From the NCBI GenBank assembly GCA_003599575.1, contig QZKV01000190.1, forward strand, positions 1 to 64,000: a stretch of 64,000 bases of DNA, written 5' to 3'. Both the position numbers and the translations under genes were made by a program. The first letter of the stretch is position 1. Each line of letters starts with the position of its first letter. The notes beneath the pieces were generated by a model. The model was given only the letters and a program-made list of their open reading frames with translations, was not told where the DNA came from and made no database searches. Positions 24,161 to 46,702 of the stretch are shown here, piece after piece. This stretch comes from Desulfobacteraceae bacterium. GTDB taxonomy: Bacteria; Desulfobacterota; Desulfobacteria; Desulfobacterales; Desulfosarcinaceae.

Positions 24161-24691
24161 TCGTGCCCTGCGGGGAAGCCGTTTTCTGAGTTGGGAAGAA
24201 TGGAATCCGAAATCAGAATCGAAGCAAAATCCGAAGCAAACTGCATAGCCGGAAAAAATAATTGTCTCCCGATAAAAAAAATTCTTGACATATTTCGTCG
24301 GACTGCATTATGCCTAAAATATAGTACTCATCTCGATTATATTATTTCCAGAATGCCGAATAGGTGAACAGTTATTGCATCGTGAGGATGCAATTATCTG
24401 GCTTCACTGAAAGTCTAAACGGCCGATAGACGAACATGAGTTCCGTGAGAATAGCTTTTCCGCGGTACTGCTATGTAAATCATATCTGAACGCATTTCTT
24501 GCTCGTTTTCGCTAGTACATCTCCAGCCGGTTAGATCGCGCCTAATTTGAATCGCTTGGTTTGCCGTGGAAGCTGGCCCAGTTAAAGGGTTGCTGTTTTA
24601 AAGCGCCCGGGGGTTTTTTTTATAAAATCCGCAACGGTGAGGCCGGAATTATTCCTTGATGCCTCGTCTCGCAAGCATCGAGGGGGGATTT
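24161..24691 (+). promoter_or_regulatory. AT-rich leader of the biosynthetic cluster
   Basis: This gene-free stretch precedes the thioesterase gene. A candidate -35 (TTGACA, 24285-24290) is followed after 17 bases by a weak TTATGC (24308-24313), with AT-rich sequence around it. Close to the gene, AAAGCGCCCGGGGG is followed by a run of eight T (about 24599-24620), a possible weak terminator or attenuator. The assignment is tentative. Confidence 0.35.
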
Positions 24692-25522
24692 ATGTTCAAA
24701 TCAGGGCAGAGTGACTTCACGAAACAATTCAAGGTCAGGTTTTCAGAAGTAGATTGCAGGGGTTATCTGAGAATCAATAACATAATTCATACAATGCTGG
24801 ACGCCACCAACGAATATTACGTCGCCATGGCCCTGGCGAAACCAGGTTTCGAATATTTGAACTACAGCTGGATAGTGAATCGTATTTCCATTCAGGCCTC
24901 AAAATATCCATATTGGAACGATACGGTTGTCATCGATGCAAGGCGCAGTCCTTATAAAAATATTTATGATGTCTGGGAAGTGCTTTTGAGGGATGGCAGG
25001 GGAGACCACCTGATACGGATAGTACTTTATCTTGTCTTGCTCAACGTCAAATTAATGCAGCCGGTGCTGCTCAATCACATTCTGCCGAAAGAATATATGA
25101 AGGAAACCTGCAGCAAAGATAACAATTTTAAAACCATTCCTTCATTAGAAAGGTGCGATCGTGAGGCTGTTTTCCCCGTGCAGTTCAATGATCTCGACCT
25201 CAATAAGCATGTAAGCAGTTTTGTCTATATCAAATGGGCTTGTGAATCCGTGCCTGCGCAAATTTTGATGGAATATCAGCTTCAAGAGCTGGATATCTCC
25301 TATAAGAAACAAACATCCCAATTAGGAAAAAAAATAACGTCGCAAATTCAATCTTTCCAGGAGGGTACGCAACCTTCCTTCCTGCACAGGATAATAGAAA
25401 ATGGCGGGACACAGGAGCTGGCGCGGTTGAGGACCCGATGGAAAAAAGTCAGTGAATCGAAGGCCAGAAGACATTTAAATCTGATGAATTTAAAAAATAT
25501 TTATACAATCGTGAGATTATGA
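24692..25522 (+). CDS. Acyl-ACP thioesterase-like protein (FatA/FatB double hotdog)
   Basis: The protein has 276 residues from the ATG at 24692, which follows GAGGGGGGATTT. Two hotdog halves are visible. The first begins KQFKVRFSEVDCRGYLRINN. The second carries the plant/bacterial acyl-ACP thioesterase signature VQFNDLDLNKHVSSFVYIKW, with Asp169-x-Asn171-x-His173 matching the catalytic D-x-N-x-H pattern. It should hydrolyse the finished acyl chain from the ACP, giving a free acid. It is the first gene of the plus-strand cluster and overlaps the next gene by four bases (ATGA), so it is an integral part of the pathway. The weak second-half conservation leaves room for another acyl acceptor. Confidence 0.78.
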   Translation: MFKSGQSDFTKQFKVRFSEVDCRGYLRINNIIHTMLDATNEYYVAMALAKPGFEYLNYSWIVNRISIQASKYPYWNDTVVIDARRSPYKNIYDVWEVLLRDGRGDHLIRIVLYLVLLNVKLMQPVLLNHILPKEYMKETCSKDNNFKTIPSLERCDREAVFPVQFNDLDLNKHVSSFVYIKWACESVPAQILMEYQLQELDISYKKQTSQLGKKITSQIQSFQEGTQPSFLHRIIENGGTQELARLRTRWKKVSESKARRHLNLMNLKNIYTIVRL

Positions 25523-27045
25523 AAAAAATAGCCATCATCAATCCGCTCGAAAAGTATTTCGATAGAATGAGCAGGCTGTTCATCATGCCGCGCTACGGCA
25601 CTGTTGCAGTCGGGTCTGCATTGAAAAGGGCCGGGTATGAGGTAAGGATTTTTTCGGAATTCATCCGGGCAGCGATCGATTGGGAATATGTATATCATTC
25701 GGATTACATATGCTTTGCACTCATGTCCTTCTGTTCCTGGCGGGGTTACGAGCTGGCTCAGCAGATAAGAAAAAAGACAAAAGCGCCCATCATTTTCGGC
25801 GGCGCCCACCCAACGGTCCTGCCGGAAGAGTGTCTTAACTATTGTGATTACGTTGTCCGCAACGAGGGGGAGGAAACGGTCGTAGAACTTATCGACAGCC
25901 TGGAAAACGGGACGGATGTTCATTCCATCAAGGGTATTTCGTATCGCAACGCATCGGGAAGGCCCGTGCACAACCCGAATCGGGAATTCATGGAGAATAT
26001 CGATATTCCGTACGATTTGACCTTGTTGAATGAATATGCGGAGGTCGGCCAAAGACCATACGGGAAAAGACCGGCCGTCAGTTTACAGGTATTGCAAACC
26101 TCGCGCGGCTGCCCGTTCAATTGCAAATTTTGCGTAGCACCGCGGGAGCTGGGAACCCGTTACCGTACGAAAAGCATTGCAACGGTTTTGACGGACATTG
26201 AAAATTCCATGTCGGTTACCAAGAGCAATACATTTATGATCGTCGATAACGAATTTACCGTCAATCGCAAGCGCACTGAAAAATTATTGCGAGCCATTAT
26301 CGATCGATACGGTCGAACGCTGAATGTTGCTCTATTTGCCCGAACGGAAATCGGCAAGGACAAACATACTCTGGATCTGATGAAGCAAGCCGGAGTAACC
26401 CTCATATATGTCGGTGTTGAATCGGTCAACGAGGATACGCTTAAATTTTACAATAAAAAACAGACCATTGCCGAGGTGACCGAAAATATCGCCGGTATTC
26501 ATGCTTCAGGCATATACACCTTTGGCTCCACTATCTTGGGATCCGATTACGATACGCCCGAAAAAATCAGGAATACTGCTGATTTTTTCATTCAAAACAA
26601 TTTTCTTCATGCAAACTTTTACTCCCTTTACGAAATACCTACAAAAGAAAGAGTGTTGGGCATTCCGCAGCTCTTCCCCGACAACCGGTTCATTCACTAT
26701 GATTGGCGCTTTTACAACAGCGCCTTCGTCATTCATTATCCCAAATATATGAAGCCCAGCACGCTCCAAAAGATAATCATCGAAAATTATGAAAAATTTT
26801 ATTCGCTGAAAGATAAAAGCCGGATCGACCCTCTGAAAGGGTCGCTTCACGGCAGAGTTTCATTCAAGCTTCACATGGTCAAACCCGAGATGGAGGTCGC
26901 AAGGAGGTATATCCCCTTTCTGGAGAAGCTTGAAGACGGGTTGTATGATGAAAGAGAACATTTGCTGGAATCCAGATTGCCGTCCGATTTCGAAAAGATT
27001 GAATTCTATAAGGAGATTCCCGTTGATTTAAGTGGATTGGACTGA
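25519..27045 (+). CDS. B12-binding radical SAM enzyme, cluster copy 1
   Basis: This 508-residue class B-like radical SAM protein has an N-terminal cobalamin-binding Rossmann domain (residues 1-150; IIFGGAHPTVLPEECLNYCD and VVRNEGEETVVELID are typical). The radical SAM core has Cys198-x3-Cys202-x2-Cys205 (RGCPFNCKFC), and a C-terminal helical part follows. Relatives methylate unactivated carbons or carry out ring contraction, cyclisation and related steps. The start overlaps the thioesterase stop. The substrate is probably an ACP-bound or free acyl chain made by the cluster; the reaction type cannot be told from sequence. Confidence 0.88.
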   Translation: MKKIAIINPLEKYFDRMSRLFIMPRYGTVAVGSALKRAGYEVRIFSEFIRAAIDWEYVYHSDYICFALMSFCSWRGYELAQQIRKKTKAPIIFGGAHPTVLPEECLNYCDYVVRNEGEETVVELIDSLENGTDVHSIKGISYRNASGRPVHNPNREFMENIDIPYDLTLLNEYAEVGQRPYGKRPAVSLQVLQTSRGCPFNCKFCVAPRELGTRYRTKSIATVLTDIENSMSVTKSNTFMIVDNEFTVNRKRTEKLLRAIIDRYGRTLNVALFARTEIGKDKHTLDLMKQAGVTLIYVGVESVNEDTLKFYNKKQTIAEVTENIAGIHASGIYTFGSTILGSDYDTPEKIRNTADFFIQNNFLHANFYSLYEIPTKERVLGIPQLFPDNRFIHYDWRFYNSAFVIHYPKYMKPSTLQKIIIENYEKFYSLKDKSRIDPLKGSLHGRVSFKLHMVKPEMEVARRYIPFLEKLEDGLYDEREHLLESRLPSDFEKIEFYKEIPVDLSGLD

Positions 27046-27098
27046 CGAATTCATTTCAGGCAAGCCTCTGTTCGATCTCCATAAAAGGAGGTGCAAAT

Positions 27099-28463
27099 AT
27101 GTTGGGACTATATAAGGAAAGGCCGTATGAGAAGAAGATCATATTTCCCATGGCCATCAACCCCCTCCTGAATCCGATCAGAAATGTTGCCAATAAGCAC
27201 GATGTCCGCGAGTACGTTGAAAAGCTGGACGATGCCGTTCCACGGACCAAAGGCATTATTTATATTCATGTGCCCTTCTGTCCAAGCATATGCACGTACT
27301 GCTCATATGATCGTGTCAAGTACGGCAAGGATGATGAAGAAGATTACGTTCATCACCTGCTGGAGGAAATGAACCTGTACAGCCGAAAAAAATTGATCCA
27401 ATCCGCCGGTTTTTTTGCCGTACATATCGGCGGCGGCACGCCAAATATGTTGTCCGATGGAGGAATAAGAACGATTTTAAACACTTTGAGAAACAGCTTC
27501 AACATAGAAAAGAATGCCGTCATCAACGTTGAAATCGGATCAAAGGCATATTCGCGTGAAAAACTGGCCCTCTTGAAGGATCTCGGTTGCAACAGGCTGA
27601 GCTTCGGCGTGCAGAGTTTCGATCCAGGTGTCCGAAAGCGGTCGGCCCTGACAACCTCAAACGACGGCTTGAAGGAAATGATCAACGACATCAAACAGTT
27701 CGGTTTTGATATTAATTTTGATCTCATGTTCGGATTGCCGGGGCAGGATGAAGAAATATGGGAATCGGATTTAAGGAAGGCGGTCGAATTCGAACCGGCC
27801 AGCCTGGATGTCTATTGTTATTATCCGATCAACAGCAAGTACTACTCTTTGTACAAGAGAAAGCAGGCGTTCAGAAGCGGATATCGGGTTGAGATGCCGA
27901 ACGAAGAAACCATCTTGAAAATGACCGAAATGACATTCACATTGCTTTGTGCGAATGGTTATGTCCAGGAGACGGCAGAGGACTTTGCGAAGCCTGGTAA
28001 ATTCAGCATTATCAAGGCCGTCGGCTATACGAAAAATGAAATATCGGACAATTACATCTATCTCGGGATGGGTCCCAATTCAATCGGCAACATCAATCCA
28101 TACGTCTACCGGAACAAATTTTATAATGTCCCAAGGACCAAAAGTTATTTGTCCGATTCAAGTGAAACCGGCGGATTCCCTATATTTTTGCTGCGAAAAA
28201 ACATCTCACCGGAACTGAAGAATTTAGTCCTGTTTCCCAAAGTGATCAAAATGAAAAAGGCGAGAATCGGCCACAGGCTGCTGCATGAATTTTCATCCAG
28301 GATCGAGGACCTCAAGGCAAGGAATTTGATAATGGATGACGGGGACAATTTCATGCTGACGGATTTAGGGAAATTATGGATCGATAATATTTCTTATGAG
28401 TTCATGAATGCGGAGATGAAGGCCAATTTCGAAGATACCATCTTTAGTTATTCCGAGGCATAG
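27099..28463 (+). CDS. HemN/HemW-like radical SAM enzyme, cluster copy 1
   Basis: This 454-residue protein related to oxygen-independent coproporphyrinogen oxidase-like enzymes carries the cluster motif Cys61-x3-Cys65-x2-Cys68 in IYIHVPFCPSICTYCSYD. Further signatures are VHIGGGTPNMLS, GCNRLSFGVQSFDPGVRK and FDLMFGLPGQDEEIW. The Cys that follows two residues later in true HemN (CxC) is Ser here. The C-terminal HemN-type domain is present (LTDLGKLWIDNIS). HemN-like relatives include class C methyltransferases and polyketide cyclopropanases such as Jaw5 and C10P, so methyl or methylene transfer to a double bond is possible. It is the most divergent of the three copies. Confidence 0.87.
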   Translation: MLGLYKERPYEKKIIFPMAINPLLNPIRNVANKHDVREYVEKLDDAVPRTKGIIYIHVPFCPSICTYCSYDRVKYGKDDEEDYVHHLLEEMNLYSRKKLIQSAGFFAVHIGGGTPNMLSDGGIRTILNTLRNSFNIEKNAVINVEIGSKAYSREKLALLKDLGCNRLSFGVQSFDPGVRKRSALTTSNDGLKEMINDIKQFGFDINFDLMFGLPGQDEEIWESDLRKAVEFEPASLDVYCYYPINSKYYSLYKRKQAFRSGYRVEMPNEETILKMTEMTFTLLCANGYVQETAEDFAKPGKFSIIKAVGYTKNEISDNYIYLGMGPNSIGNINPYVYRNKFYNVPRTKSYLSDSSETGGFPIFLLRKNISPELKNLVLFPKVIKMKKARIGHRLLHEFSSRIEDLKARNLIMDDGDNFMLTDLGKLWIDNISYEFMNAEMKANFEDTIFSYSEA

Positions 28464-28516
28464 ACCATCGCGAGACACCGGTTCCAAATTTTCAGCTAAA
28501 AGAGAGGAAGACAGCA

Positions 28517-28777
28517 ATGGAAGCAATTGAATTGGTAGGCGACTTGGAGAAAAAAATCACCCAAATCGTTTCGGAGATTCTGGAAATGGACGAGCAGGAA
28601 ATCTGGGAAAAAAGAAAACTGAACTTTTTTAAAGACATGGGCCTGGATTCTTTGCTTGCACTTGAGATTGTTGCAAGTATCGAGAAGCGATTCCGAATCG
28701 AAATCGCTGAAGAACGCTTAAGAGACGTATCGACGCTTGAACAGACGATCAGCCTGGTTGAGGAATTGCTCGCTTAG
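28517..28777 (+). CDS. Acyl carrier protein
   Basis: This 86-residue ACP carries the phosphopantetheine attachment Ser45 in KDMGLDSLLALEIVASIE. It is acidic and helical, with FRIEIAEERLRDVSTLEQ in the expected helix III position. It is the only carrier protein in the cluster, so all seven KS-fold proteins, the dehydratases, the reductase and the thioesterase probably act on chains bound to it. No phosphopantetheinyl transferase is encoded nearby, so a housekeeping one must serve. A good RBS (AGAGAGGAAGACAGC) precedes the ATG. Confidence 0.93.
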   Translation: MEAIELVGDLEKKITQIVSEILEMDEQEIWEKRKLNFFKDMGLDSLLALEIVASIEKRFRIEIAEERLRDVSTLEQTISLVEELLA

Positions 28778-28890
28778 CCGGTCTCGCTCTGTAATGCATC
28801 ATGCGGAATGAGATGCAGATGCCAAGGGTCGCGAGGAGGAGTTCGGTGATTCGCGGGAAAGTAAATTCCTGACTTAGGCGAAACCAATGG

Positions 28891-30141
28891 ATGGCCATCA
28901 TGCAGGCACACACCGACCGTGATAGGCGGGTCATGATAACGGGAGTCGGAGTGTTGACATCAATCGGGCTCGACAAAGACCGTTTTTGGGAGTCCATTAT
29001 CAATGGAAAGTCGAATATAAGCGACATTCAGGACGATAGCATCAAGGAATTAAAAATCCGCAAAGGATGCGTTATCCAGGACTTTGATATTCGCCAATTC
29101 ACGCCCAAGAAAGAGTCGACCGGATTATCAAGGGGGGCTAAACTGAGCCTGGCTGCAGCCAAATCGGCTCTGGAGGATTCAGGGCTCGATCTTGCAACCG
29201 TTCACCCTTCACGGATCGGCATATCCATAGGAACGACACTTGGAGAATCACAGGCCATTGAGGAAGTAGCCGCCGCTAGTGTAAATGGAACCGCAAACGG
29301 TCCCGATCGATTTGAGAAGATAAGACGATGCTCGCCGGTGAACCTGGTGGCCTCCATAAAGAGGGAATATGGCATCTGGGGGCCGACGTGCCTTATTCCG
29401 GCAGCCTGCGCGGCCGGCAATTATGCAATCGGCTTTGGATATGATGCAATCAAGTCGGGAACCTCCGATATCATTATATCCGGTGGGGTCGAACCTTTCT
29501 CGAAAATACTTCTGATCGGTTTTTCAAGAATGAAGCTGATCGCTCCCGACATGTGTCAGCCTTTTGATAGAAACAGAAAGGGTTTATTGGTTGGAGAAGG
29601 AGCTGGAATGCTCATATTGGAGGAGTACGGGCACGCAAGAAAAAGGAATGCACGGATCTACGGCGAACTGTTGGGATATGGGCTCAGCTGCGATGCATAT
29701 CACATGGCTGCGCCGCAACCGGACGCGGCAGAAGCGGCCCTCGCCTTGCAACGCGCGCTCGACCGGTCACGTATAAATCCCGGAGATGTTCAATATATCA
29801 GCGCTCACGGTACGGGTACACATTCAAACGACCTTGTTGAGACCAGAGCCATAAAGAAGGTGTTCGGCAGTTGCGCGAAAAAGACCCCCGTGAGCTCGAT
29901 CAAATCCATGATCGGGCATACGATGGGGGCGGCCGGTGCCATAGAGGCGGTGCTTTGCGCGATGGTCCTCCAGAATCAGATTATCCCACCGACCATTAAT
30001 TTACATGAGCCGGATCCGCTGTGCGATTTGGATTACGTCCCCAATGAGGCGCGCGAGGCCGATATCAATACGGTAGTCAGCAATTCATACGGTTTCTTCG
30101 GAAATAACGCATCAATCGTATTGTCCACAAAAAGAATTTAA
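28891..30141 (+). CDS. Ketosynthase 1 (FabF/KAS II fold), active-site complete, unpaired
   Basis: This 416-residue beta-ketoacyl-ACP synthase has all three catalytic residues: Cys173 (IPAACAAGNYAIG), His306 (SAHGTGT) and His343 (SMIGHTMGAAG). It catalyses decarboxylative condensation of malonyl-ACP with an acyl chain. Unlike the other active copies it has no catalytically dead partner next door; its neighbours are the ACP and a B12-radical SAM gene. It may start the chain, or act as a homodimer at a different stage. The ATG at 28891 has only a weak RBS; a second ATG three codons on is possible. Confidence 0.92.
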   Translation: MAIMQAHTDRDRRVMITGVGVLTSIGLDKDRFWESIINGKSNISDIQDDSIKELKIRKGCVIQDFDIRQFTPKKESTGLSRGAKLSLAAAKSALEDSGLDLATVHPSRIGISIGTTLGESQAIEEVAAASVNGTANGPDRFEKIRRCSPVNLVASIKREYGIWGPTCLIPAACAAGNYAIGFGYDAIKSGTSDIIISGGVEPFSKILLIGFSRMKLIAPDMCQPFDRNRKGLLVGEGAGMLILEEYGHARKRNARIYGELLGYGLSCDAYHMAAPQPDAAEAALALQRALDRSRINPGDVQYISAHGTGTHSNDLVETRAIKKVFGSCAKKTPVSSIKSMIGHTMGAAGAIEAVLCAMVLQNQIIPPTINLHEPDPLCDLDYVPNEAREADINTVVSNSYGFFGNNASIVLSTKRI

Positions 30142-30223
30142 CAAAATCGGGTAACCGGAAATCATCGGGACGGATGGGATTCGGGCAATCGATAACAGGT
30201 CCAGGAAAGCAACGGGTGAATAC

Positions 30224-31531
30224 TTGAAAGTAGCTTTAGTATCTCCTCAAAGAGGACGACTGATTGGTGATTCCGCTCTGGAAAAATTCTTTTGGTCGTC
30301 AACAGAGCTCTCCAAGCGGGCGGACATTATCTACAACTGGCCGGAATTGGGTCTTCTTACCCTGGCGGGGATGATGCCCTCCCATTATGAGATCAAATAC
30401 CTCGATGACGGCAAAGAACATATCAATTACGCCGGGGAATATGATTTGGTGGCGATTACGGCGCTCACCCCGAAAGCCAGCAGAGCTTTTGAAATAGCCG
30501 ATGAATTCAGGAAGCGGGGAAAATACGTCGTGATGGGAGGCCCCCATGCCTCGGTGTTGCCGGAAGATGCGGCCCGACATGCCGACAGCGTGTTTGTCGG
30601 CGAGGCCCAATTCAGTTGGAACGATTTCATCGAAGATTTTATGCAAGGCCACCCAAAGCCCGTATACAACGGCGCGGGCCGGTATGCTGCTATGACCGAA
30701 TCGCCTGTTCCGCGTTACGATCTTCTCAACATGGAAAATTATAAAATTATTCCTGTGGAAACCACCCGGGGTTGCCCCCACGATTGCGAATTCTGCTCAA
30801 GCACTAAGCTATGGGGAAGGAGCTACCGAAGGAAAAACGTTGCCCAGGTCATCCGTGAGATCGAGGAAGTCAAACGGTACGCAAATAACAAGTTCCTCTT
30901 TTTCGTGGATGATAACATGTTTGTCCAGCGTGAGTTTTCATATGAACTTCTGAAGGCGATTCGAAAATATAAACTGAGATGGTTTGCCCAGTCCGACATT
31001 TCCGTATCCGATGATGACAAGCTTCTGGATTTGATCTATCAAGCGGGCTGCCGTGAGTTGTTGATTGGTTTCGAAACGATTTCTCCCGATAACCTGAAAA
31101 CATTGGACAGCAGCCAATGGAAACTGAAACAGCTCGCAAGATATCCGTCCGCCATAGAGAAGATTCAGGCCGAGGGAATCTCGATATACGGATCGTTCAT
31201 TCTCGGTCTGGATCATGACGACGAGAGCGTCTTCCAGAGAACCAGGGATTTTATAATCAATACCAACCTTCTCGGATTTCAAATACTGGTGATGACTCCG
31301 ATTCCGGGCACGCGGGTTCATGAACGACTGAAAAAAGAAAACAGGTTGTATCCCGTAAAAGATTGGGGGACCTATTCAACGTACCAACTGAATTATGAAC
31401 TTAAAAAGATGTCGCGGGATACATTTGAAAAAGGCATGCTGTGGTTATTCAGGGAGTTGTACAGCGAGGAAGCATTCAATAAGCGCAAGATGCATTATCT
31501 TAAACTCATCAGAAATCTGAAAAAATCGTGA
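30224..31531 (+). CDS. B12-binding radical SAM enzyme, cluster copy 2
   Basis: This 435-residue protein starts at a TTG (LKVALVSPQRGRLIGD); no in-frame ATG fits better. It has a cobalamin-binding domain at residues 1-150 (VVMGGPHASVLPEDAARHAD, VFVGEAQFSWNDFI). The radical SAM core carries Cys184-x3-Cys188-x2-Cys191 (RGCPHDCEFC), LFFVDDNMFV and LLIGFETISPDNLK. It is clearly a paralogue of a different subgroup from the enzyme at 25.5-27.0 kb, so the two probably act at different sites or steps. Relatives include methyltransferases and ring-forming enzymes such as hopanoid and oxetane-forming types. The reaction here is unknown. Confidence 0.87.
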   Translation: MKVALVSPQRGRLIGDSALEKFFWSSTELSKRADIIYNWPELGLLTLAGMMPSHYEIKYLDDGKEHINYAGEYDLVAITALTPKASRAFEIADEFRKRGKYVVMGGPHASVLPEDAARHADSVFVGEAQFSWNDFIEDFMQGHPKPVYNGAGRYAAMTESPVPRYDLLNMENYKIIPVETTRGCPHDCEFCSSTKLWGRSYRRKNVAQVIREIEEVKRYANNKFLFFVDDNMFVQREFSYELLKAIRKYKLRWFAQSDISVSDDDKLLDLIYQAGCRELLIGFETISPDNLKTLDSSQWKLKQLARYPSAIEKIQAEGISIYGSFILGLDHDDESVFQRTRDFIINTNLLGFQILVMTPIPGTRVHERLKKENRLYPVKDWGTYSTYQLNYELKKMSRDTFEKGMLWLFRELYSEEAFNKRKMHYLKLIRNLKKS

Positions 31532-31612
31532 ACAGGCCGATCATGACGATCATTGTATCGAAATGCCGGCCGTTGTTTCCGCGTCAACCCATCATCGTAA
31601 TCTAGGCAGATT

Positions 31613-32941: not shown

Positions 32942-32990
32942 TTTTAAACCGCCGGAGGCATTCAGAATCGGATAAGGAGAAGAAATCGGG

Positions 32991-37342: not shown

Positions 37343-37411
37343 AGACGCGGGAATGGTTCGATTTCATTACTTGCAACAGCGGTCATAATTGTTCGCGAAA
37401 AAGAAAATCGA

Positions 37412-38650: not shown

Positions 38651-38732
38651 CTTTTAATGCACCGATCGCCGCGGCAAAGTCGTTCAGGCAGGTCCTTTCG
38701 AGAATAAGAGATAAACATAGGGGAGGATTTCG

Positions 38733-39470: not shown

Positions 39471-39488
39471 TGCAAAAGGGGGGGAAGT

Positions 39489-40811
39489 ATGTCGACAAGA
39501 GAGAATTGCCCGCAACAGGTGAAAAATCCCTTTAAAGTTCGATCCACCGCGCCGTTGTTTTTCTATCCTATGTTTCATCCAGGCAAGGACATGATGACGC
39601 GGGATAAAATAAACTCTTTCATCGGAAACCTGCAGAATCCGTGTGTCCCCTCAAAGAAGGCCGAGATATATGTCCATATCCCCTTTTGCGACAGTTTTTG
39701 CCATATGTGTGCGTGTTACAAGACCCATACGCCCCGGGACAAGAGCATCCTGGCCCGGTATGTGGAACTGCTGAGAAGGGAAATGGATTATTACGCGGGT
39801 ACGCCATATGTACAGGCCCTGGAGATAGAATGCGTGTATTTCGGCGGCGGGACACCTAGCACGCTGACCAGGGAGCTTATCGAAGAGTTGATTACGCACA
39901 CGAAAAGCCGTTTCAATATCTCAGGGAATAAAGAAATAACGTTCGAAGGAGACGTGAGGACATTAAAGGACCGAGACCGGCTGGAGGCCTTGAGAAGATC
40001 CGGGTGCAACAGGGTGAGCTTCGGCGTGCAAACATTGAATAAGACAGCAAGGAAGCTCTCCGGCCTTGTCCCGACCCTGGAGGAAATCAAAGAGTGCATT
40101 CATACTCTGAGAGCATATGGCTATAAAATCAATTTCGATTTGATGTTCGGGCTACCCGGGCAAGATATGGACATATGGAAAGAAGATCTGCAGGCCGCTG
40201 TTGAACTCGGGGTGGAGGGTATAGACATTTACGAGACGATCGTTTACCCGACTACAAAATTATTCCAGTTGCGCCACAAACGGCCAATGGCCGATGGCGG
40301 TCAACGGATGGAAATGCTGAGCTTTGCGATCGAATATCTGGGAACAAACAGCTTTGTGCAGAAGTCCAAAGCCATACATGAGAAGGATGGAAATGAGTTC
40401 AAGTTGCTGCAACTGGGTCATGAATCGCCGGATACAGTGGCTATCGGCGATAGTGCCATAGGCTATTTAAACAACTATGCGTACCGAAACGTATCACCGT
40501 TAACCGCCTATATGAACCGGGGAAATCATGCTCCGCTTCCATTGCGTCTGGGAATAGAGTTGGACAAAGAAGATTATTATGCGCGCCGGATGCTCATATT
40601 GCCCAAAATTCTCAAGATCAGCAAAAGCAAATACAGTGAGGAAATCCGACATTACAGAGATAAAGTAAATGAAATGATCGATATGAATCTGATCGAGGAG
40701 GACGCTGAATATCTAAAATTGACGCCACTGGGAAAATTGTGGACGGACAATATCGCTTATGAGTTAATTCCTTCCCGAAAGAGGGGAAGAATGTGGAAAA
40801 TCATGTATTGA
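39489..40811 (+). CDS. HemN/HemW-like radical SAM enzyme, cluster copy 3
   Basis: This 440-residue protein has Cys67-x3-Cys71-x2-Cys74 plus a fourth Cys76 (CDSFCHMCACY), so alone among the three copies it keeps the CxC of true HemN. Other motifs are VYFGGGTPSTLT, GCNRVSFGVQTLNKTARKLS and FDLMFGLPGQDMDIW. It is most similar to the copy at 31.6-32.9 kb. A ferredoxin gene starts right after its stop, suggesting coupled electron delivery. A conversion of the acyl chain such as methyl transfer, cyclopropanation or cyclisation is inferred, not shown. Confidence 0.87.
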   Translation: MSTRENCPQQVKNPFKVRSTAPLFFYPMFHPGKDMMTRDKINSFIGNLQNPCVPSKKAEIYVHIPFCDSFCHMCACYKTHTPRDKSILARYVELLRREMDYYAGTPYVQALEIECVYFGGGTPSTLTRELIEELITHTKSRFNISGNKEITFEGDVRTLKDRDRLEALRRSGCNRVSFGVQTLNKTARKLSGLVPTLEEIKECIHTLRAYGYKINFDLMFGLPGQDMDIWKEDLQAAVELGVEGIDIYETIVYPTTKLFQLRHKRPMADGGQRMEMLSFAIEYLGTNSFVQKSKAIHEKDGNEFKLLQLGHESPDTVAIGDSAIGYLNNYAYRNVSPLTAYMNRGNHAPLPLRLGIELDKEDYYARRMLILPKILKISKSKYSEEIRHYRDKVNEMIDMNLIEEDAEYLKLTPLGKLWTDNIAYELIPSRKRGRMWKIMY

Positions 40812-40822
40812 AAGGAATCCAG

Positions 40823-41023
40823 ATGGATTACAGGATAACAGATCAATGTGTGGTCTGCTGGCGATGCATGGATTCATGTCCGAACGGAGCCATTATCGAT
40901 TGTGAAATACACGTCACGGACAAATATTCGATGCCCGGCGTTACGATCAATGACCTTGAATGCAGTAAATGCGGCCTATGCAAGGAGGTCTGTCCGGTTG
41001 ATGCGATTGTTGTGAATGAATAA
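40823..41023 (+). CDS. 2[4Fe-4S] ferredoxin
   Basis: This 66-residue ferredoxin has two clusters, CVVCWRCMDSCP and CSKCGLCKEVCP, separated by about 28 residues. The ATG at 40823 is chosen because AAAGGAATCCAG precedes it; an earlier in-frame ATG at 40793 would overlap the radical SAM gene by 19 bases. It lies 11 bases after the third HemN-like gene and is the likely low-potential electron donor for the five radical SAM enzymes. Confidence 0.92.
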   Translation: MDYRITDQCVVCWRCMDSCPNGAIIDCEIHVTDKYSMPGVTINDLECSKCGLCKEVCPVDAIVVNE

Positions 41024-41092
41024 CGGCGCAGGAAGCGGCCAATCATCCGGACGGCCGCGAATCTGCTTGGGAGTAACCGATAACAAGAGTGG

Positions 41093-41548
41093 ATGAAGAA
41101 GATGCTTGACTCCAGCTATGAAGGGAAGGCTTTAAAGCCGTTTACGTCCCGTATTGAAAGAGAGGATATCAGACAATTCTGCCGGGCCCTGGGGGACGAG
41201 AACCCAGTTCACCATAACAGGGATTTGGCGGCAGGCAAAGGATACAAGGACGTTCCCGCCCCGCTCACCTTTTGTACTACCTTGCTGTTCAAGGGTTGTC
41301 CCGGACTATGGCAGATATTGCAGGACATCGGACTGGATATCAACAGGATGCTGCATACCAAAGAAGAGTACGAGTTCTTCGGGGTTGTCTATCCCGGCGA
41401 CCACCTGCAAAGTTCCCTATCGATCGATCTGGTCCATTCCACTGCAACGACCGATATCGTCTCGATCAGGAACAGTGTCACCAGAGATGGGGAGCAGGTT
41501 GTTATTGTCAAGACGACATTAATATCCCCCAGGAGGCCAATCGCATGA
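41093..41548 (+). CDS. MaoC-type dehydratase, first subunit
   Basis: This 151-residue hotdog protein resembles the N-terminal (FAS1-dehydratase/HadA-like) half of MaoC hydratases: IEREDIRQFCRALGDENPVH, PLTFCTTLLF and YEFFGVVYPGDHLQ. It overlaps the following MaoC gene by four bases (ATGA). Such halves usually stabilise and bind substrate while the partner supplies the catalytic Asp/His, as in mycobacterial HadAB. It offers a second dehydration route beside FabZ. Confidence 0.82.
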   Translation: MKKMLDSSYEGKALKPFTSRIEREDIRQFCRALGDENPVHHNRDLAAGKGYKDVPAPLTFCTTLLFKGCPGLWQILQDIGLDINRMLHTKEEYEFFGVVYPGDHLQSSLSIDLVHSTATTDIVSIRNSVTRDGEQVVIVKTTLISPRRPIA

Positions 41549-41967
41549 GTGGACTTCATTATGATGAATTGAATATTCATTGTCCATTGCCGTCCATGCA
41601 GAAGGGGCTGCTTACGCAAAGCCAAATATGGCAATATGCGAAGGCATCAGGAGATTCGAACCCGATTCATATCGACGACTCGGCTGCTAAAAACGCCGGA
41701 TTGGACGGGACAATAGCCCATGGAATGCTGGTCATGGGATTATTGGGCGAAATGATTTCAACTTGGGCCGGCATTCAAAATATAAAGACCTATCGGGTCA
41801 GGTTCAAAGGGGTCGCAAAACCGGGTGACATTTTGACCTCTCGTGGAGAGATTGTGAAAAAATATGTGTCAGGCAACGACAAAATCATCGAGTGTAAGGT
41901 ATTGGTCGAAAATCAGCGCAAGGAGATCATCGTGGATGGATCTGCAGCTATACGGTGTCAAGATTGA
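41545..41967 (+). CDS. MaoC-type dehydratase, catalytic subunit
   Basis: This 140-residue hotdog protein has the R-hydratase motif with Asp37 and His42 (ASGDSNPIHIDDSAAKNAG) followed by TIAHGMLVMGLLG. The start at 41545 follows AGGAGGCCAATCGC and overlaps the previous stop. With its partner it should dehydrate 3-hydroxyacyl-ACP. It is the last gene of the plus-strand arm and faces the flavodoxin-ferredoxin gene 40 bases away. Having two dehydratase types suggests double bonds of different position or geometry, or different chain lengths. Confidence 0.88.
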   Translation: MSGLHYDELNIHCPLPSMQKGLLTQSQIWQYAKASGDSNPIHIDDSAAKNAGLDGTIAHGMLVMGLLGEMISTWAGIQNIKTYRVRFKGVAKPGDILTSRGEIVKKYVSGNDKIIECKVLVENQRKEIIVDGSAAIRCQD

Positions 41968-42007
41968 AACCGGCAAAGGAGATTTCATGTAAAGAGCCGT
42001 TCCGGGC

Positions 42008-42883
42008 TCAACTTTCACTCCGATTCAGCCGTTCCGTGCGTCCTCTCCGGTGAGCAACGCGTACGTAATCCAATTCCGGATTGCTCGCCGCGCGGGCGAT
42101 GTTGCCGTCGTAGAAAGGTGAGAAACTCTGCCAGCTCATTGGCGAAGTGATGGCCTCTGCAGGGCACCTCATTTCACAATAAAGACAGAGCAGGCATTTT
42201 CGACCCCACTGCGGCCTTCCGTCGCTTCCGGCATGGATATTTCCTGTGGGGCAGATCTCCACACAGAGCCCGCAGCCCGTGCAGTCGGTTTTTTTGACCG
42301 CAAAAAACCGCGCGAAGATGTGTCTGACAAGCCACCGATTGAGCGTAAGCCGTTGCAGGCGGTAAATGAAATCCGGAGGCTTGTCTTCGGCCGGCCTGAC
42401 GTACTCGGCTCCTGCCAGACGTGCAGCCAGCTGGCGACCGAACACTTCGGAATTCGTCCGGTCTGCTTGGACTGGGTGACCGGGTGAAAAAAGGTATCCT
42501 TTCTTCAGGTAGCCTAAAAAATAGTCTGCTCCCCGACTGCGGAAGTAGCCTAACTCCCTCATTTTCTTGTGCATCAACACTCTCCTCACAGATGTTCCGG
42601 CGTTGCCGGGATAAGTCCCGTAGGTGATAAATACGAATGCCGGCAGGCCGGGGAGATCCGGCAGACCGCCCAGGTAGTCCCATATAATAAATGGTGGCTG
42701 AAAATAATAGACGGGAAAGCCGATTCCCAGAAGATCGGAACCGGCAAGATCCGGCGGTGCATGATTGATTAAATTGTACAGCTCGACGTCGCGACCGAAG
42801 TTCCTCAGGCCGGTTGCAATGGATTCGGCGACTTGAGCGGTGGCCCCGCCTTGAGAGAAATACACAATCCGGCTTTTGGTCAT
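42008..42883 (-). CDS. EFR1-type flavodoxin-ferredoxin fusion
   Basis: The protein has about 291 residues. The N-terminal flavodoxin-like domain binds FMN (KSRIVYFSQGGATAQVAESI, then LLGIGFPVYYFQPP). The C-terminal part has two 4Fe-4S motifs, CTGCGLCVEICP and CLLCLYCEMRCP. EFR1 proteins are thought to carry low-potential electrons. It is the last gene of the minus-strand arm, after a KS/CLF pair, and with the ferredoxin at 40.8 kb gives the cluster its own electron supply. The ATG at 42883 follows TGTGGAGACCCC. Confidence 0.85.
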   Translation of the reverse strand: MTKSRIVYFSQGGATAQVAESIATGLRNFGRDVELYNLINHAPPDLAGSDLLGIGFPVYYFQPPFIIWDYLGGLPDLPGLPAFVFITYGTYPGNAGTSVRRVLMHKKMRELGYFRSRGADYFLGYLKKGYLFSPGHPVQADRTNSEVFGRQLAARLAGAEYVRPAEDKPPDFIYRLQRLTLNRWLVRHIFARFFAVKKTDCTGCGLCVEICPTGNIHAGSDGRPQWGRKCLLCLYCEMRCPAEAITSPMSWQSFSPFYDGNIARAASNPELDYVRVAHRRGRTERLNRSES

Positions 42884-43026
42884 GGGGTCTCCACATCGAA
42901 GTTTGCAAAAATTCATTTTGGCAATAGCCCACAGGCTGTGTTGGCCAGCGGTTCATTGCTTGCAAAATAGGTTTTACACTACCCTGCTGAATTGCCCATT
43001 CCGTGTGAATCCATGCATAACCATGT

Positions 43027-44265
43027 TCATTTTATCGATTTAAATACGAGAACACTATTATTGCCTCCGGGCGAGAGAGAATGTGAAATTGCGACATCTA
43101 CTCTCAATTCTCTAGCTTTCCCGGTAATAAGATTCAGATCGCACAGTGGGTCCGGCGTGACGCAATTGATCGTAGGAGGTGCAATCTGCTTCTGAATAGC
43201 CAGGCAGCAGACGGCGGCGTTGAATGCGCCTGAGGCGCCAAACGTATGGCCGATCGCCGGCTTTATGGAACTGATGGGAATTTCTTGAGCTGATTCCGGG
43301 TAGGACCTCTGTATTGCCCGGCACTCATATAAATCGCCTGGAATCGTCCCGTTCCCTTCTGCGCAGATATAATCGACCTCATTTGGACCGGTGTCGCCAT
43401 CTTCTAATGCCAGCAGGATCGCATCCCCTGCCCCTTCGCCGGTCGTGGAATATTCTCCCATCGACCAGGCGCTGTTGGTAGCGCCGTAACCGGCTACTTC
43501 GGCATAAATCCGGGCATTTCTCTTAAGGGCGGTTTCATATCTTTCCAGGACGAGAATGCAGGTCCCCTCACCCGGAACCAATCCCTTTCGGTTTGCATCG
43601 AAAGGCCTGCATACTTCGCTTGCCTGGGCGGCGGAGGGCTCGTGATCCTTCTCAACCTGGAAAGTACCGTAAATCCATCTATTCAACTCCTCTCCGCCTC
43701 CCGCCAATATGATGTCTGCCTTTCCGCCCTGGATGTATTCACATGCCCATCCTATCGAATCGGAGCCTGAGCAGAAACCGTTTACAATTGCACTGCAGAG
43801 GCCCTTGATGCCAAGCTCGAGATTTATCTGGCTTGCTGGTGAATGGGCGGCAATATTCTGGAACAGCATGGGGCTGACTTTTTTCATTTCATCTTCCGCC
43901 ATCGCCCTTTCGAATGAAGCGAGACTCTCCCAGCCTGAATACATCGTCCCAAAAACGATCCCAATTCTGGTACTATTTTGAGCATTGATTTCGAGTCTCG
44001 CATCCTTTGCCGCCAGAGAGGAACCCGCAAGGGTAAATCTCGTTATCCTGTCGATAAATTTGATATACTTCCGGTTCGTATGATCCTTCAGATCAAATGG
44101 CGTGACCTCACCTGCATTATGGAATTTGAATTCGGATGTATCGAAGCACCTGACCCGCTTGATTCCCGATTCCCCCCGGATGACGGTATCCCAAAAAGCA
44201 TCCTTGCCGCAACCCGCGGCGGATACCATGCCCAAACCTGTAACGACCACGCGAGGCCGCCCCAT
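43027..44265 (-). CDS. Chain-length-factor-like KS-beta, pair 3
   Basis: The protein has about 412 residues from the ATG at 44265, which follows TTGGGGGGCAAGT. Aligned with its sisters, the catalytic Cys position is Phe164 (VNGFCSGSDSIG), with a Cys shifted one place to 165. The first His is Glu303 (CAEGNGT), while the second His340 is kept (AIGHTFGASGA). It is therefore CLF-like but less eroded than the two plus-strand beta subunits, and comes from a different branch. It lies 85 bases after an active KS gene, giving the third alpha/beta pair. Confidence 0.85.
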   Translation of the reverse strand: MGRPRVVVTGLGMVSAAGCGKDAFWDTVIRGESGIKRVRCFDTSEFKFHNAGEVTPFDLKDHTNRKYIKFIDRITRFTLAGSSLAAKDARLEINAQNSTRIGIVFGTMYSGWESLASFERAMAEDEMKKVSPMLFQNIAAHSPASQINLELGIKGLCSAIVNGFCSGSDSIGWACEYIQGGKADIILAGGGEELNRWIYGTFQVEKDHEPSAAQASEVCRPFDANRKGLVPGEGTCILVLERYETALKRNARIYAEVAGYGATNSAWSMGEYSTTGEGAGDAILLALEDGDTGPNEVDYICAEGNGTIPGDLYECRAIQRSYPESAQEIPISSIKPAIGHTFGASGAFNAAVCCLAIQKQIAPPTINCVTPDPLCDLNLITGKARELRVDVAISHSLSPGGNNSVLVFKSIK

Positions 44266-44349
44266 ACTTGCCCCCCAAGATGCGGAACTCAGGATGATCA
44301 AATGTCTGAATCCGGGAAGTAAATCCCGGTTGGATGGTAAGAGATGACT

Positions 44350-45567
44350 CTACAGCGTCGAATATTTTTTTACGATCAGCGAAGCGTTATTTCCTCCAAA
44401 GGCATACGAATTGGACATGGCCACCCGGACGGTTTTTTCTATCGCCGCATTGGGTACATAGTCGAGATCACATTCCGGATCGGGCTGCTGGTAGTTGATC
44501 GTGGGAGGAATTATCCCTCTCTCCAGTATAAGCGCGCAGGCCGCGAGTTCGATTGCGCCCGATGCCCCGAAAGTGTGACCCAGGGTGGATTTGATCGAAC
44601 TCATAGGAATTTCGTAAGCCCTGTTGCCGAAGACGCTTTTGGAGGCTGTTGTCTCCATCTTATCGTTTAATGGAGTACCCGTTCCGTGGGCGCTGATGTA
44701 ATCGACATCATCAATAGACACGCCGGCATCGTCCAGAGCGGCTCTCATGGACAGCGAAGCTCCCTGTCCGCTTATATCCGGGGCCGTCATGTGATAGGCG
44801 TCGCAACTGAGCCCATACCCGGCAACCTCCCCGTATATATGGGCATTTCTGGCAATTGCCTGATCGAGGGATTCCAGAATGATTACCGCGGCCCCTTCCG
44901 ATATCAATAGCCCATCCCGGTTTTTATCGAACGGCCGGCACATGCCGCTCGCCAGAGATCGCGTATTGCTGAAGCCGCACATCACGGTCTCGCTTATTGT
45001 TTCCGAGCCTCCGGCCATCATGAAATCGGCCTTTCCCCGGCGAATCAGCTCGAAAGACTCCCCTACGGCATATGTTCCGGCGGCGCAGGCATTGACAAAA
45101 AGAGCGGTTCTGCCCCTGCAGCCATATTTGATGGCGAGATAATCGGTTATGGTTTCAGGTCGGTATTTGATGATATCGGTGTATTGGATTGATCTGAAGC
45201 CTTCTTGCACCCATTTCTTACAATAAGAGGCATTATTGGCCGCGGTACTTGTGCCCAGGATGATGCCCGATCTTTTGCCGTCATTCGGCCCGCCGGGAAG
45301 TTTCGCGTCGTCAAGGGCCATTCTCGCGGCTGCGATGGAAAAATGAGTGACTCTGTCCAAAATCTCGATTTCTTCGGCCGTCAGGTATTCGGCAGGATTG
45401 AAATCCTGAATTTCCCCTCCCATCGATGTATGGTAATGTGAAGTATCGAACCCGCGAATGTTTTTAATTCCGGACTTTCCTGCAATTAAAGCATCCCAGA
45501 AGAGTTCCTTGCCGATCCCTATGGGCGTTACCAGACCAAGTCCGGTGATCGCAACTCTTCTTTTCAT
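44350..45567 (-). CDS. Ketosynthase 4 (KS-alpha), active-site complete, pairs with the next gene
   Basis: This 405-residue FabF-fold condensing enzyme has Cys161 (FVNACAAGTYAVG), His294 (SAHGTGT) and His331 (STLGHTFGASG). The RBS GAGAAGGAGCGT precedes the ATG. It is followed by the CLF-like gene on the minus strand and preceded by two DUF6125-like genes. It probably works with the ACP encoded in the plus arm. Confidence 0.92.
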   Translation of the reverse strand: MKRRVAITGLGLVTPIGIGKELFWDALIAGKSGIKNIRGFDTSHYHTSMGGEIQDFNPAEYLTAEEIEILDRVTHFSIAAARMALDDAKLPGGPNDGKRSGIILGTSTAANNASYCKKWVQEGFRSIQYTDIIKYRPETITDYLAIKYGCRGRTALFVNACAAGTYAVGESFELIRRGKADFMMAGGSETISETVMCGFSNTRSLASGMCRPFDKNRDGLLISEGAAVIILESLDQAIARNAHIYGEVAGYGLSCDAYHMTAPDISGQGASLSMRAALDDAGVSIDDVDYISAHGTGTPLNDKMETTASKSVFGNRAYEIPMSSIKSTLGHTFGASGAIELAACALILERGIIPPTINYQQPDPECDLDYVPNAAIEKTVRVAMSNSYAFGGNNASLIVKKYSTL

Positions 45568-45613
45568 ACGCTCCTTCTCTCATGTCGCTCCGGGCGATAT
45601 GCGCCTCGGTCTG

Positions 45614-46153
45614 CTAGGAAGGAAAGGCAACATTTTCAACCAGGATTTCACAGCGCTCATCGCCGTCTTTCAAACACTTGAGCAGTTTTTCTCTAACTTC
45701 GACACCCATCGCATGGTACCATCCCGAACGCAATCCGAAGCACCCGCACTGATAATCCTTCTGCGCCCCGATGCTGCGTAATTTCGTGTTCGCATAGCAT
45801 TGCTGGACGACGCCCAGACCGGCTGAATGCTCCGGGGTTTCGTACCAGTAATCCATGTAGTCTTTGGTCACGAATGTTTCCATTGCCAGGGTGACCATCA
45901 TTATGAATTCATCCCGGTTCCGCGGTTGTTGCAATCCCAGCGCCTTCATCAAACGGTGCATTTCCACGCTTCCTACGGCCTGGGCCACCTGAAGATTGAT
46001 CTTGTTGGCCACTTCCCATCCGGCATGCATCACCATGGACATCATCCAATGCGAATCGCAGGTCCAGCGGCTTTTGGCGATCATTTCGCGCCTGGCATCA
46101 TCGGGAATCGTGCCCAGCTTGGCCCTTGCCGTTTCGATCAACTGGGTATCCAT
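45614..46153 (-). CDS. DUF6125/amino-thiazoline hydrolase-like protein, copy A
   Basis: This 179-residue cytoplasmic protein resembles the DUF6125 / L-2-amino-thiazoline-4-carboxylate hydrolase-like group. Visible features are KSRWTCDSHWMMSMVMHAGW, ANKINLQVAQAVGSVEMHRL, AMETFVTKDYMDYW, GWYHAMGV and a C-terminal Cys pair CLKDGDERCEI. The function in this setting is unknown. It shares the layout of the next upstream gene (copy B), so the two are paralogues and may form a heteromer. Placement in an operon with a KS/CLF pair implies a role in the pathway. Family assignment is from memory of motifs. Confidence 0.65.
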   Translation of the reverse strand: MDTQLIETARAKLGTIPDDARREMIAKSRWTCDSHWMMSMVMHAGWEVANKINLQVAQAVGSVEMHRLMKALGLQQPRNRDEFIMMVTLAMETFVTKDYMDYWYETPEHSAGLGVVQQCYANTKLRSIGAQKDYQCGCFGLRSGWYHAMGVEVREKLLKCLKDGDERCEILVENVAFPS

Positions 46154-46186
46154 TTTAATAATCCTTTCATTATTATTGTGGATATC

Positions 46187-46702
46187 TCAATCCAGGTTAA
46201 AACGAAAATCGATTTCGCATTTGCCCTGGTCACGCATCAAACAACCGGTAAATTCAGGAACCATTTCATACTTCACGCCCAGACCGTTGAGCCAGCCTTT
46301 GATTCTGACAACGATTCCGCATTGGTAGATGTCCGCCATGGCAAATTTTTTGACACCCTCATAGGCGAAGCACTCGTGGAAACCGCCCCGAAAGACGTTG
46401 TTCTCAGGAAAACCGTAATGGATCTTCATGAATTCAGGCAGAATCAATCGGTAGACGGAGTCGATAATTTCCCTTAATTCATCGAAGGTCTTTACCGGCT
46501 GGTCCACCCTGCCCATCAGTTTCAAAATCCGCTTTATCTCGATAGCTGACATCGATGCCACGGCATCCTTGTTGATCTTGTTTGCACGCTCGGGTCCCAG
46601 TTCCTGCAGACAGTGGTAGTACCACATGGCATCATGAGTCATCCAGCCTTTAGAGAAAAATTCTCTAATCCCCTTCTTGTCCAGAGCATCTAAGATCTCC
46701 AT
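46187..46702 (-). CDS. DUF6125/amino-thiazoline hydrolase-like protein, copy B
   Basis: This 171-residue paralogue of copy A has IREFFSKGWMTHDAMWYYH, ANKINKDAVASMSAIEIKRI, KIHYGF, YQCGIVVRIKGWLNGLGV and the Cys pair CLMRDQGKCEIDF. The RBS TTGGGAGGACGCCC precedes the ATG. It is the first intact gene of the minus-strand arm. Upstream lies a third, broken copy (46847-47155), so this family has been duplicated repeatedly here. The function is unknown. Confidence 0.65.
   Translation of the reverse strand: MEILDALDKKGIREFFSKGWMTHDAMWYYHCLQELGPERANKINKDAVASMSAIEIKRILKLMGRVDQPVKTFDELREIIDSVYRLILPEFMKIHYGFPENNVFRGGFHECFAYEGVKKFAMADIYQCGIVVRIKGWLNGLGVKYEMVPEFTGCLMRDQGKCEIDFRFNLD

Follow-up and report, generated by a model that had tools for sequence, protein, structure and literature searches.

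Does a gene set of the kind proposed for ladderane synthesis in anammox bacteria exist outside them and, if so, in what form? The question is raised by a gene cluster at positions 24656-46702 of contig QZKV01000190.1 (C17) of a Desulfobacteraceae bacterium (assembly GCA_003599575.1). The stretch analysed, hereafter the window, comprises the first 64,000 nucleotides, nearly all of this 64,898-base contig, and belongs to a metagenome-assembled genome (MAG) of 6.45 Mb in 197 contigs. How ladderanes are made is unsolved: according to PMC4790861, 34 candidate genes of Kuenenia were synthesised and tried as operons in Escherichia coli without success, and anammox bacteria are described in PMC9821293 as not being in pure culture. 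The anammox candidate genes are spread over several loci, while the island in which the present cluster lies gathers counterparts of them, together with radical S-adenosylmethionine (SAM) enzymes and a thioesterase, in one compact set. Two ketosynthase/chain-length factor (KS/CLF) pairs of this set group with the anammox ladderane-candidate proteins of two separate loci, here within one operon. Judged by its sequences, the island is a variant of the ladderane-candidate gene set outside anammox, in the genome of another phylum.

KS-fold proteins of the cluster and their pairing

The cluster contains 22 genes in two converging arms (plus strand, 24656-41967; minus strand, 46702-42008), an arrangement in two arms that a preliminary description of the window had noted; all 22 reading frames are open, and 20 of them have a Pfam match over the cut-off. 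That description had counted seven KS-fold proteins, an acyl carrier protein (ACP), a FabG, a FabZ, a MaoC pair, a thioesterase, five radical SAM enzymes and two ferredoxin-type proteins, and Pfam bears out every one of these classes in its place (Table 1). The plus arm begins with the thioesterase, B12-binding radical SAM protein 1 (B12rSAM1), radical SAM A, the ACP, KS1, B12rSAM2, radical SAM B and FabZ, and continues with KS2, KS3, KS4, KS5, FabG, radical SAM C, a ferredoxin and the HadA-like and HadB-like proteins; the minus arm reads two small unknown proteins, KS7, KS6 and an EFR1 flavodoxin-ferredoxin. Since the genes of the plus arm overlap or have 18 to 113 bases between them, this arm is operon-like and not a chance scatter.

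When the seven KS-fold proteins were placed in one alignment, the Cys-His-His set was found to be retained in KS1, KS2, KS4 and KS7. The corresponding residues are Glu, Asn and Glu in KS3, Ile, Cys and Glu in KS5, and Phe, Glu and His in KS6; these three proteins, which have lost the active-site Cys, look like CLFs. The KS2 and KS3 genes overlap, and KS4/KS5 and KS7/KS6 are neighbours. From this adjacency, the seven proteins would make up three KS/CLF pairs and one single KS, both the pairing and the dimers being predicted.

A search of solved structures gave 9S5H as the top match, by wide margins, for KS2 (521 versus 340 bits) and KS3 (338 versus 201 bits), and likewise as the top match for KS4 (402 versus 312 bits) and KS5 (217 versus 183 bits); for KS6 it also came first, but without a margin (282 versus 281 bits). 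9S5H can itself be read as an anammox KS/CLF, since its chain C agrees with the row given by Rattray 2009 for kuste3606 at eight of eight positions (Val163, Asn298, Tyr300, Gly302, Lys328, Glu333, Gln342 and Arg392) and both of its chains pair with Brocadia pituitae in a tree; no publication naming 9S5H was found in the literature search. The structure predicted for KS5 (predicted local distance difference test, pLDDT, 87) returned only the FabF/KS fold among the 50 matches listed in a fold search, and 9S5H does not figure in these 50.

Relationship of the island proteins to the anammox loci

Two types of anammox locus, identified by gene order and by the residues that Table 2 of Rattray 2009 (PMC2649909) lists for kuste3606 and kuste2805, served for comparison: locus 1, of the kuste3603-3608 type, and locus 2, of the kuste2802-2805 type. 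The assignment of kuste3603 as ACP and of kuste2804 as KS was made from gene order and the papers. Locus 1 runs ACP, FabZ, KS, CLF, CrtI-like oxidase and B12 radical SAM, for example in Brocadia pituitae (L064), where the kuste3606 residue row is also found. Locus 2, as it stands in Scalindua (L131), runs B12 radical SAM, KS, CLF, flavin mononucleotide (FMN) oxidoreductase, ECH and FabG. The locus-2 CLFs of Brocadia pituitae and Kuenenia hertensis (L158, L160) carry Phe163, Asn298, Asn300 and Cys302, as does kuste2805; that of Scalindua has Gly302, unlike the kuste2805 row.

When 84,980 species genomes were scanned with KS3 and chain C of 9S5H, at least 80 loci emerged, and the first 24 listed are all from Planctomycetota; after these, Omnitrophota and Nitrospirota mix in among further anammox loci (among the matches listed). 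The 80 loci were picked from the matches listed for their resemblance to KS3, by means of two short patterns, and the rows of the KS tree (38) and the CLF tree (35) were chosen by hand from the loci fetched. In the trees and in the ACP count below, 'anammox' includes Planctomycetota MAGs without an anammox name that nest with named ones; among 29 locus-1 CLF rows, 17 bear such a name and 12 do not.

In the KS tree, KS4 was sister to six locus-2 KSs (support 96/91) and KS2 to five locus-1 KSs (94/87, just below the mark set by the tool). The CLF tree gave the matching picture for their partners, with KS5 sister to six locus-2 CLFs (100/99) and KS3 sister to five locus-1 CLFs (97/95). A quick tree of 93 rows, in which CLF rows were sorted by the missing Cys motif and the two Omnitrophota KSs included fell with the outgroup, placed KS5 with eight locus-2 CLFs (99) and KS3 with 29 locus-1 CLFs (92), no other row entering either clade. 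The best tree did not unite KS3 and KS5 with both anammox CLF types in one clade; such a clade was not rejected (p-AU 0.244). Among the remaining proteins, KS7 grouped with FabF-type proteins (99/96), KS6 fell with the KS outgroup and not with the CLFs, and KS1 lay near the locus-1 group without a resolved branching.

BLAST scores against anammox proteins, other phyla and the fetched loci of the host phylum were, in that order, 417, 379 and 323 bits for KS1, 515, 412 and 313 for KS2, 328, 314 and 232 for KS3, and 257, 224 and 205 for KS5. The host-phylum values were obtained on loci retrieved for KS3 and KS5, and for KS1, KS2 and KS4 are not the best of that phylum; as a control, the best non-self protein of the host phylum scored 230 bits for KS3 (395 genomes) and 207 bits for KS5 (317 genomes). 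Identity to full-length anammox copies of locus 1 was 55-60% for KS2, 42-46% for KS3 and 36-43% for FabZ. The best match of FabG was in anammox locus 2 (58%, 300 bits).

The island ACP is 48-59% identical to the anammox locus-1 ACPs. It carries EIWEKRKLNFFKD, where 12 aligned non-anammox ACPs are two residues shorter, and the motif I[WF]xKR..FF was present in it, in 22 of 22 anammox-locus ACPs and in none of the 26 ACPs of other loci (n = 48, counted over open reading frames, ORFs, of fewer than 130 amino acids that matched the window ACP by BLAST). For AmxACP3, PMC9821293 describes a conserved two-Phe motif. The island also keeps the anammox order ACP-FabZ-KS-CLF, but with KS1, B12rSAM2 and radical SAM B inserted between ACP and FabZ.

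Liao and others (2022; PMC9387917) report that four of the 34 candidates listed by Rattray may have been acquired when anammox arose, and a figure legend in that paper names kuste2805, 3603 and 3605-3606, which are taken here to be those four. By gene order, kuste2805 is the locus-2 CLF, while 3603, 3605 and 3606 are the ACP, KS and CLF of locus 1; their counterparts in the island are KS5, the ACP, KS2 and KS3, respectively. Since the island proteins are sister to the anammox groups and not nested within them, they may have come from a source related to that of anammox or from an early branch. In the literature search, no publication turned up that describes sisters of these anammox KS/CLF pairs in organisms other than anammox bacteria. 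The kinship proposed here follows from the tree relations of two KS/CLF pairs and from the ACP motif, not from genome-mining labels; PMC9902471 reports that such mining puts 'ladderane' labels, as a looser class, in many non-anammox phyla, Desulfobacterota included.

A KS/CLF locus that is uncharacterised, and in many cases includes FabG, ACP and FabZ, proved to be widespread, mostly in Omnitrophota and Nitrospirota among the matches listed (L079, L084, L085, L087-L116, L118-L124, L127-L130, L133 and L134). Pfam found CrtI-like Amino_oxidase and histidine kinase genes in each of L088, L101 and L109. In a further locus, from Pyrinomonadaceae (Acidobacteriota; L132, 8760-14322), a KS/CLF pair near the anammox locus-1 type is followed by an HMG-CoA reductase gene and a CrtI-like gene.

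Acquisition of the island by the host

In the same-genus genome G009 the site of the island is empty: the acyl-CoA dehydrogenase and AMP-ligase genes, between which the island lies in the window, are there 211 bp apart. Identity to G009 was 79% for the left flank gene, 80% for the acyl-CoA dehydrogenase and 85% for the AMP-ligase; homology to the empty site breaks off at 24156 and restarts at 51611, delimiting an island of 27.5 kb. These limits make the MalT/BTAD-type regulator part of the island and the AMP-ligase and acyl-CoA dehydrogenase its flanks. The guanine-plus-cytosine (GC) content of the island is 0.492, as compared with 0.571 in the left flank and 0.603 in the right. On these comparisons with G009 and with its own flanks, the island is horizontally acquired, and synteny with G009 on both sides of it speaks against a chimeric contig. 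The only repeat at the island edges was a single 10-base direct match, and no attachment site is claimed. The host is predicted to be a sulfate reducer, as dsrA genes were found in it over the cut-off. In 395 genomes of its phylum no KS3 of the anammox type was found, on which ground that phylum is not Planctomycetota.

Radical SAM enzymes

The best NCBIfam model for B12rSAM1 was BchE (142 bits, cut-off 481), and in the tree this protein stood outside the clade of B12rSAM2 and the anammox proteins, beside one from Omnitrophota. B12rSAM2 is 39% identical to the protein of a host-phylum locus (G433) and 29-32% identical to full-length anammox copies; in the tree it was nearest the G433 protein (94/81), within a clade (100/99) that holds both anammox B12 radical SAM groups, with kuste2803/3608-type proteins, together with host-phylum ones.

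The other three enzymes are HemN-like and contain CX3CX2C. For all of them the best NCBIfam model was TIGR04107, ChuW/HutW (A, 171 bits; B, 219 bits; C, 216 bits; cut-off 400), and their profile matched HemN 1olt over residues 49-451 and NocN in its core region. Radical SAM C, to which B is 38% and A 29% identical, was used as the query for the trio in other genomes. Its best score was 117 bits in seven anammox and three other genomes and 148 bits in 395 genomes of the phylum, neither being a close match; an ortholog (54%) was present in one of 389 same-order genomes (G708), and none in the 10 other same-genus genomes searched. On the G708 contig (C142; L209, L210) the ortholog adjoins a stand-alone KS, an AMP-ligase in two frames and an HGD-D gene. 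That it stands beside a KS suggests that radical SAM C works with KS pathways. The KS in question belongs to a different type (32-35%), and G708, a genome that is 89% complete and whose contig ends there, yielded no gene of the KS2 type. The same contig also bears further KS, KASIII, radical SAM and FAD oxidoreductase genes. A scan of viral contigs returned nothing for radical SAM C alone, and for C and B as a pair four distant HemN-like matches.

Proposed pathway

We consider, with a probability of about one half, that the island encodes an anaerobic type II polyene synthase of the ladderane-candidate kind, laterally acquired and equipped with radical tailoring enzymes. The dedicated ACP would carry the chain, which KS2/KS3 and KS4/KS5, and probably KS7/KS6, would extend together with FabG, FabZ and the HadAB-like dehydratases. 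A KS/CLF with a reductase and a dehydratase and without an enoyl reductase leaves double bonds in its product, and with no enoyl reductase in the island the chain would keep them. The five radical SAM enzymes, for which the ferredoxin and the EFR1 protein would provide electrons, would then join carbons across the ACP-bound polyene, or add carbons to it, turning it into a strained and cyclised lipid chain; freeing the acid for the lipid enzymes of the host would fall to the FatA-like thioesterase. Polyene product, radical cyclisation, electron supply and release are all predicted steps. The product may be a ladderane (with cyclobutanes), a polycyclopropane or a linear polyene.

That a sulfate-reducing, non-anammox bacterium should make true ladderanes, or an equally strained polycyclic lipid, is considerably less probable than the synthase reading itself, and we regard it as distinctly doubtful. 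If it did, the overlap between the island and the anammox loci (ACP, FabZ, FabG, two KS/CLF pairs and a B12 radical SAM protein) would represent a minimal ladderane core, and CrtI-like desaturation would be either dispensable or replaced by the HemN-like trio. The intersection of the island with the anammox loci narrows the list of ladderane candidates, and the island offers a single construct for expression. If ladderane-like lipids do occur outside anammox, as the finding suggests they may, their use as biomarkers would be affected.

Comparison with known systems and alternative explanations

With the kuste3603-3608 type of locus, such as L064, the island shares the ACP-FabZ-KS-CLF genes and a B12 radical SAM gene; it lacks the CrtI-like Amino_oxidase gene that adjoins the CLF in L064, and adds the HemN-like trio, the thioesterase and the HadAB pair. 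With the kuste2802-2805 type, such as that of Scalindua, it shares the KS and CLF to which KS4 and KS5 are sisters, and a FabG of up to 58% identity. Unlike in either type, counterparts of the two loci share one operon. The absence of a CrtI-like desaturase had already been remarked on in the preliminary description and holds for the whole island by Pfam, whereas anammox locus 1 has one.

The same description had linked the cluster to ladderane synthesis and, in doing so, to a gene set of the deltaproteobacterium Desulfotalea psychrophila. The link stands as regards the chain-building core, for which two KS/CLF pairs in trees and the ACP motif speak, and does not fit in detail as regards Desulfotalea. 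Rattray 2009 reports synteny between D. psychrophila and Kuenenia, and the mark of the set shared by the two would be TIGR04072 (rSAM_ladder_B12, cut-off 360), a model over its cut-off in 84 of 395 host-phylum genomes. Those sets resemble the island in bringing together KS and B12 radical SAM genes in anaerobes, but B12rSAM1 and B12rSAM2 scored 104 and 80 bits. The B12 radical SAM proteins of the anammox loci L064 and L131 also fall below the cut-off (88 and 77 bits), and the host has a protein that exceeds it on another contig (C123, 400 bits), as well as one that does not (C57, 314 bits). The match on C123 (L046) lies near divergent KS genes, the weaker one on C57 being in L047. D. psychrophila could itself hold a pair of the KS2/KS3 type.

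This failure of both B12 proteins to reach TIGR04072 is one of several points that weigh against a ladderane-type synthase, and in the tree neither of them is sister to the anammox ones. KS5 is a long branch. For KS4, BLAST gave 391 bits with anammox locus-1 KSs, 381 with Omnitrophota and 364 with locus-2 KSs; being no closer to locus 2 than to the other types, this protein is placed by the tree and not by BLAST. No anammox affinity was seen for KS6 (294 bits with anammox, 300 with other phyla and 296 with the fetched host-phylum loci) or KS7 (382, 384 and 370 bits), and FabG was matched nearly as well by Omnitrophota (58%, 288 bits). The looser KS/CLF loci are common in Omnitrophota and Nitrospirota, with a CrtI-like gene in three of three sampled, and we know of no ladderane from either phylum. 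Three kinds of enzyme encoded at anammox loci 1 and 2, the CrtI-like desaturase, the FMN oxidoreductase and ECH, have by Pfam no counterpart among the island proteins. The enoyl reductase, in turn, is missing only in the sense that none is named among the island proteins, host enoyl reductases not having been looked for. The MAG has a contamination of 6.93% and contains two dsrA genes above the cut-off (contigs C68 and C196; 617 and 568 bits), the presence of two being either a duplication or a sign of mixed strains. Finally, the reference pathway is itself unproven, since expression of Kuenenia kuste3603-3608 in E. coli, as reported in PMC4790861, led to detectable proteins and to no new fatty acid.

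An unlikely alternative is that the HemN-like trio are class C methylene transferases and the product a polycyclopropanated or C-methylated fatty acid, which would make the island a type II counterpart of jawsamycin-like pathways. According to PMC6050322, ChuW/HutW is a class C family, HemN-like enzymes of this class transfer methylene from SAM, C10P, which is HemN-like, and C10Q together cyclopropanate an olefinic bond, while the Jaw5 enzyme of jawsamycin, a polycyclopropanated product, is regarded as a variant that may act as a cyclopropanase. The trio has CX3CX2C and HemN-type sequence over the whole chain, as class C enzymes do, with ChuW/HutW as its best model and profile matches to HemN 1olt and the NocN core, and three copies would suit several sites of modification. 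All three are nevertheless divergent and far under the curated ChuW/HutW cut-off of 400 bits, no separate methyltransferase domain like C10Q appears among the island Pfam matches, and two anammox-type KS/CLF pairs would be left unexplained. Of similarly low probability is a linear product (a polyene, polyunsaturated acid or hydrocarbon), made as in Desulfotalea, aryl polyene or highly reducing type II systems, with the radical SAM enzymes isomerising, desaturating or trimming it. The predicted KS/CLF-like pairs, ACP, ketoreductase and dehydratase, with no enoyl reductase named in the cluster, are what the island has in common with aryl polyene and highly reducing type II polyketide synthases. 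It differs from them in its five radical SAM enzymes, in our opinion many for a linear chain, and in that KS2-KS5 match 9S5H ahead of the ishigamide KS. A TIGR04072 protein of the Desulfotalea kind is absent from the island, the copy over the cut-off being on another contig of the host. Aryl polyene clusters contain genes for the supply of an aryl starter (ammonia-lyase, aryl-CoA/ACP ligase); none was found among the island Pfam matches, and the AMP-ligase at 51593 is a flank gene. Pfa-type synthases of polyunsaturated fatty acids are multidomain proteins, PfaA-D, while the KS, ACP, ketoreductase and dehydratase of the island are separate proteins.

A decayed or mosaic import with no function in the host is a very improbable reading of the island. 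Its foreign GC content would suit such an origin, as would the lack of a radical SAM C ortholog in the 10 other genomes of the genus that were searched. All 22 frames are open, however, with Pfam matches over the cut-off in 20, the Cys-His-His set is kept in all four Cys-type KSs, and the genes are tightly spaced, all of which speaks against this reading.

Features of the island and its surroundings

Table 1. Coordinates of the island, its genes and the flanking genes in the window
Feature	Position	Strand	Evidence or remark
Acyl-CoA dehydrogenase	22272-24089		Ordinary neighbour (flank gene)
Horizontally acquired island (by comparison)	24157..51610		Between convergent acyl-CoA dehydrogenase and AMP-ligase genes; empty site in same-genus genome G009, GC drop
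FatA/FatB-like acyl-ACP thioesterase	24656..25522	+	PF01643, PF20791 (N and C domains of Acyl-ACP_TE)
B12-binding radical SAM protein 1	25519..27045	+	PF02310, PF04055
HemN-like radical SAM A	27099..28463	+	PF04055
ACP of anammox locus-1 type (IWxKR..FF)	28517..28777	+	PF00550
KS1, stand-alone ketosynthase	28891..30141	+	Pfam; Cys-His-His
B12-binding radical SAM protein 2, family adjoining anammox and host-phylum KS loci	30224..31531	+	Pfam
HemN-like radical SAM B	31613..32941	+	Pfam Radical_SAM
FabZ-like 3-hydroxyacyl-ACP dehydratase	32991..33494	+	PF07977
KS2, ketosynthase, sister of anammox kuste3605-type KS	33587..34828	+	Tree, identity
KS3, CLF-like partner of KS2, sister of kuste3606-type	34818..36071	+	Tree; Cys to Glu
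KS4, ketosynthase, tree sister of anammox kuste2804-type KS	36128..37342	+	Tree
KS5, CLF-like partner of KS4, sister of kuste2805-type	37412..38650	+	Tree; Cys to Ile
FabG-type 3-oxoacyl-ACP reductase	38733..39470	+	TIGR01830, 323 bits (cut-off 298)
HemN-like radical SAM C	39489..40811	+	Pfam Radical_SAM
4Fe-4S ferredoxin	40793..41023	+	PF00037, two stretches
HadA-like dehydratase subunit	41093..41548	+	PF13452 (FAS1_DH)
HadB/MaoC-like dehydratase subunit	41545..41967	+	PF01575; HadB models below cut-off
EFR1 family flavodoxin-ferredoxin	42008..42916	-	NF038196, 103 bits (cut-off 75)
KS6, CLF-like	43027..44301	-	Cys to Phe, first His to Glu, second His kept
KS7, ketosynthase, FabF side of tree	44350..45567	-	Cys-His-His
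Small unknown protein	45614..46153	-	No Pfam or NCBIfam match
Small unknown protein, weak DUF6125 match	46187..46702	-	PF19620, 26.1 bits (cut-off 27)
MalT/BTAD-type ATPase transcription regulator	48032..51301	+	PF03704 over cut-off, TPR and AAA matches; MalT model 239 bits (cut-off 537)
AMP-ligase	51593-53290		Ordinary neighbour (flank gene)

Scans for promoters and terminators over 41800-48100 gave counts at chance level. The MalT/BTAD-type regulator, a protein of 1089 amino acids encoded within the island, is a possible controller of the cluster. The two tandem small proteins that open the minus arm (45614-46702) are 26% identical and have Cys residues near the C-terminus in common; no BLAST match to them at 1e-10 was found among the ORFs of the 80 fetched KS loci, and for the 45614-46153 protein two sequences rendered a poor structure model (mean pLDDT 47). 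The open frame at 46963-47256 reads HPGAGRGPE...GFRRND, which resembles a dispersed bacterial intergenic repeat more than a gene.

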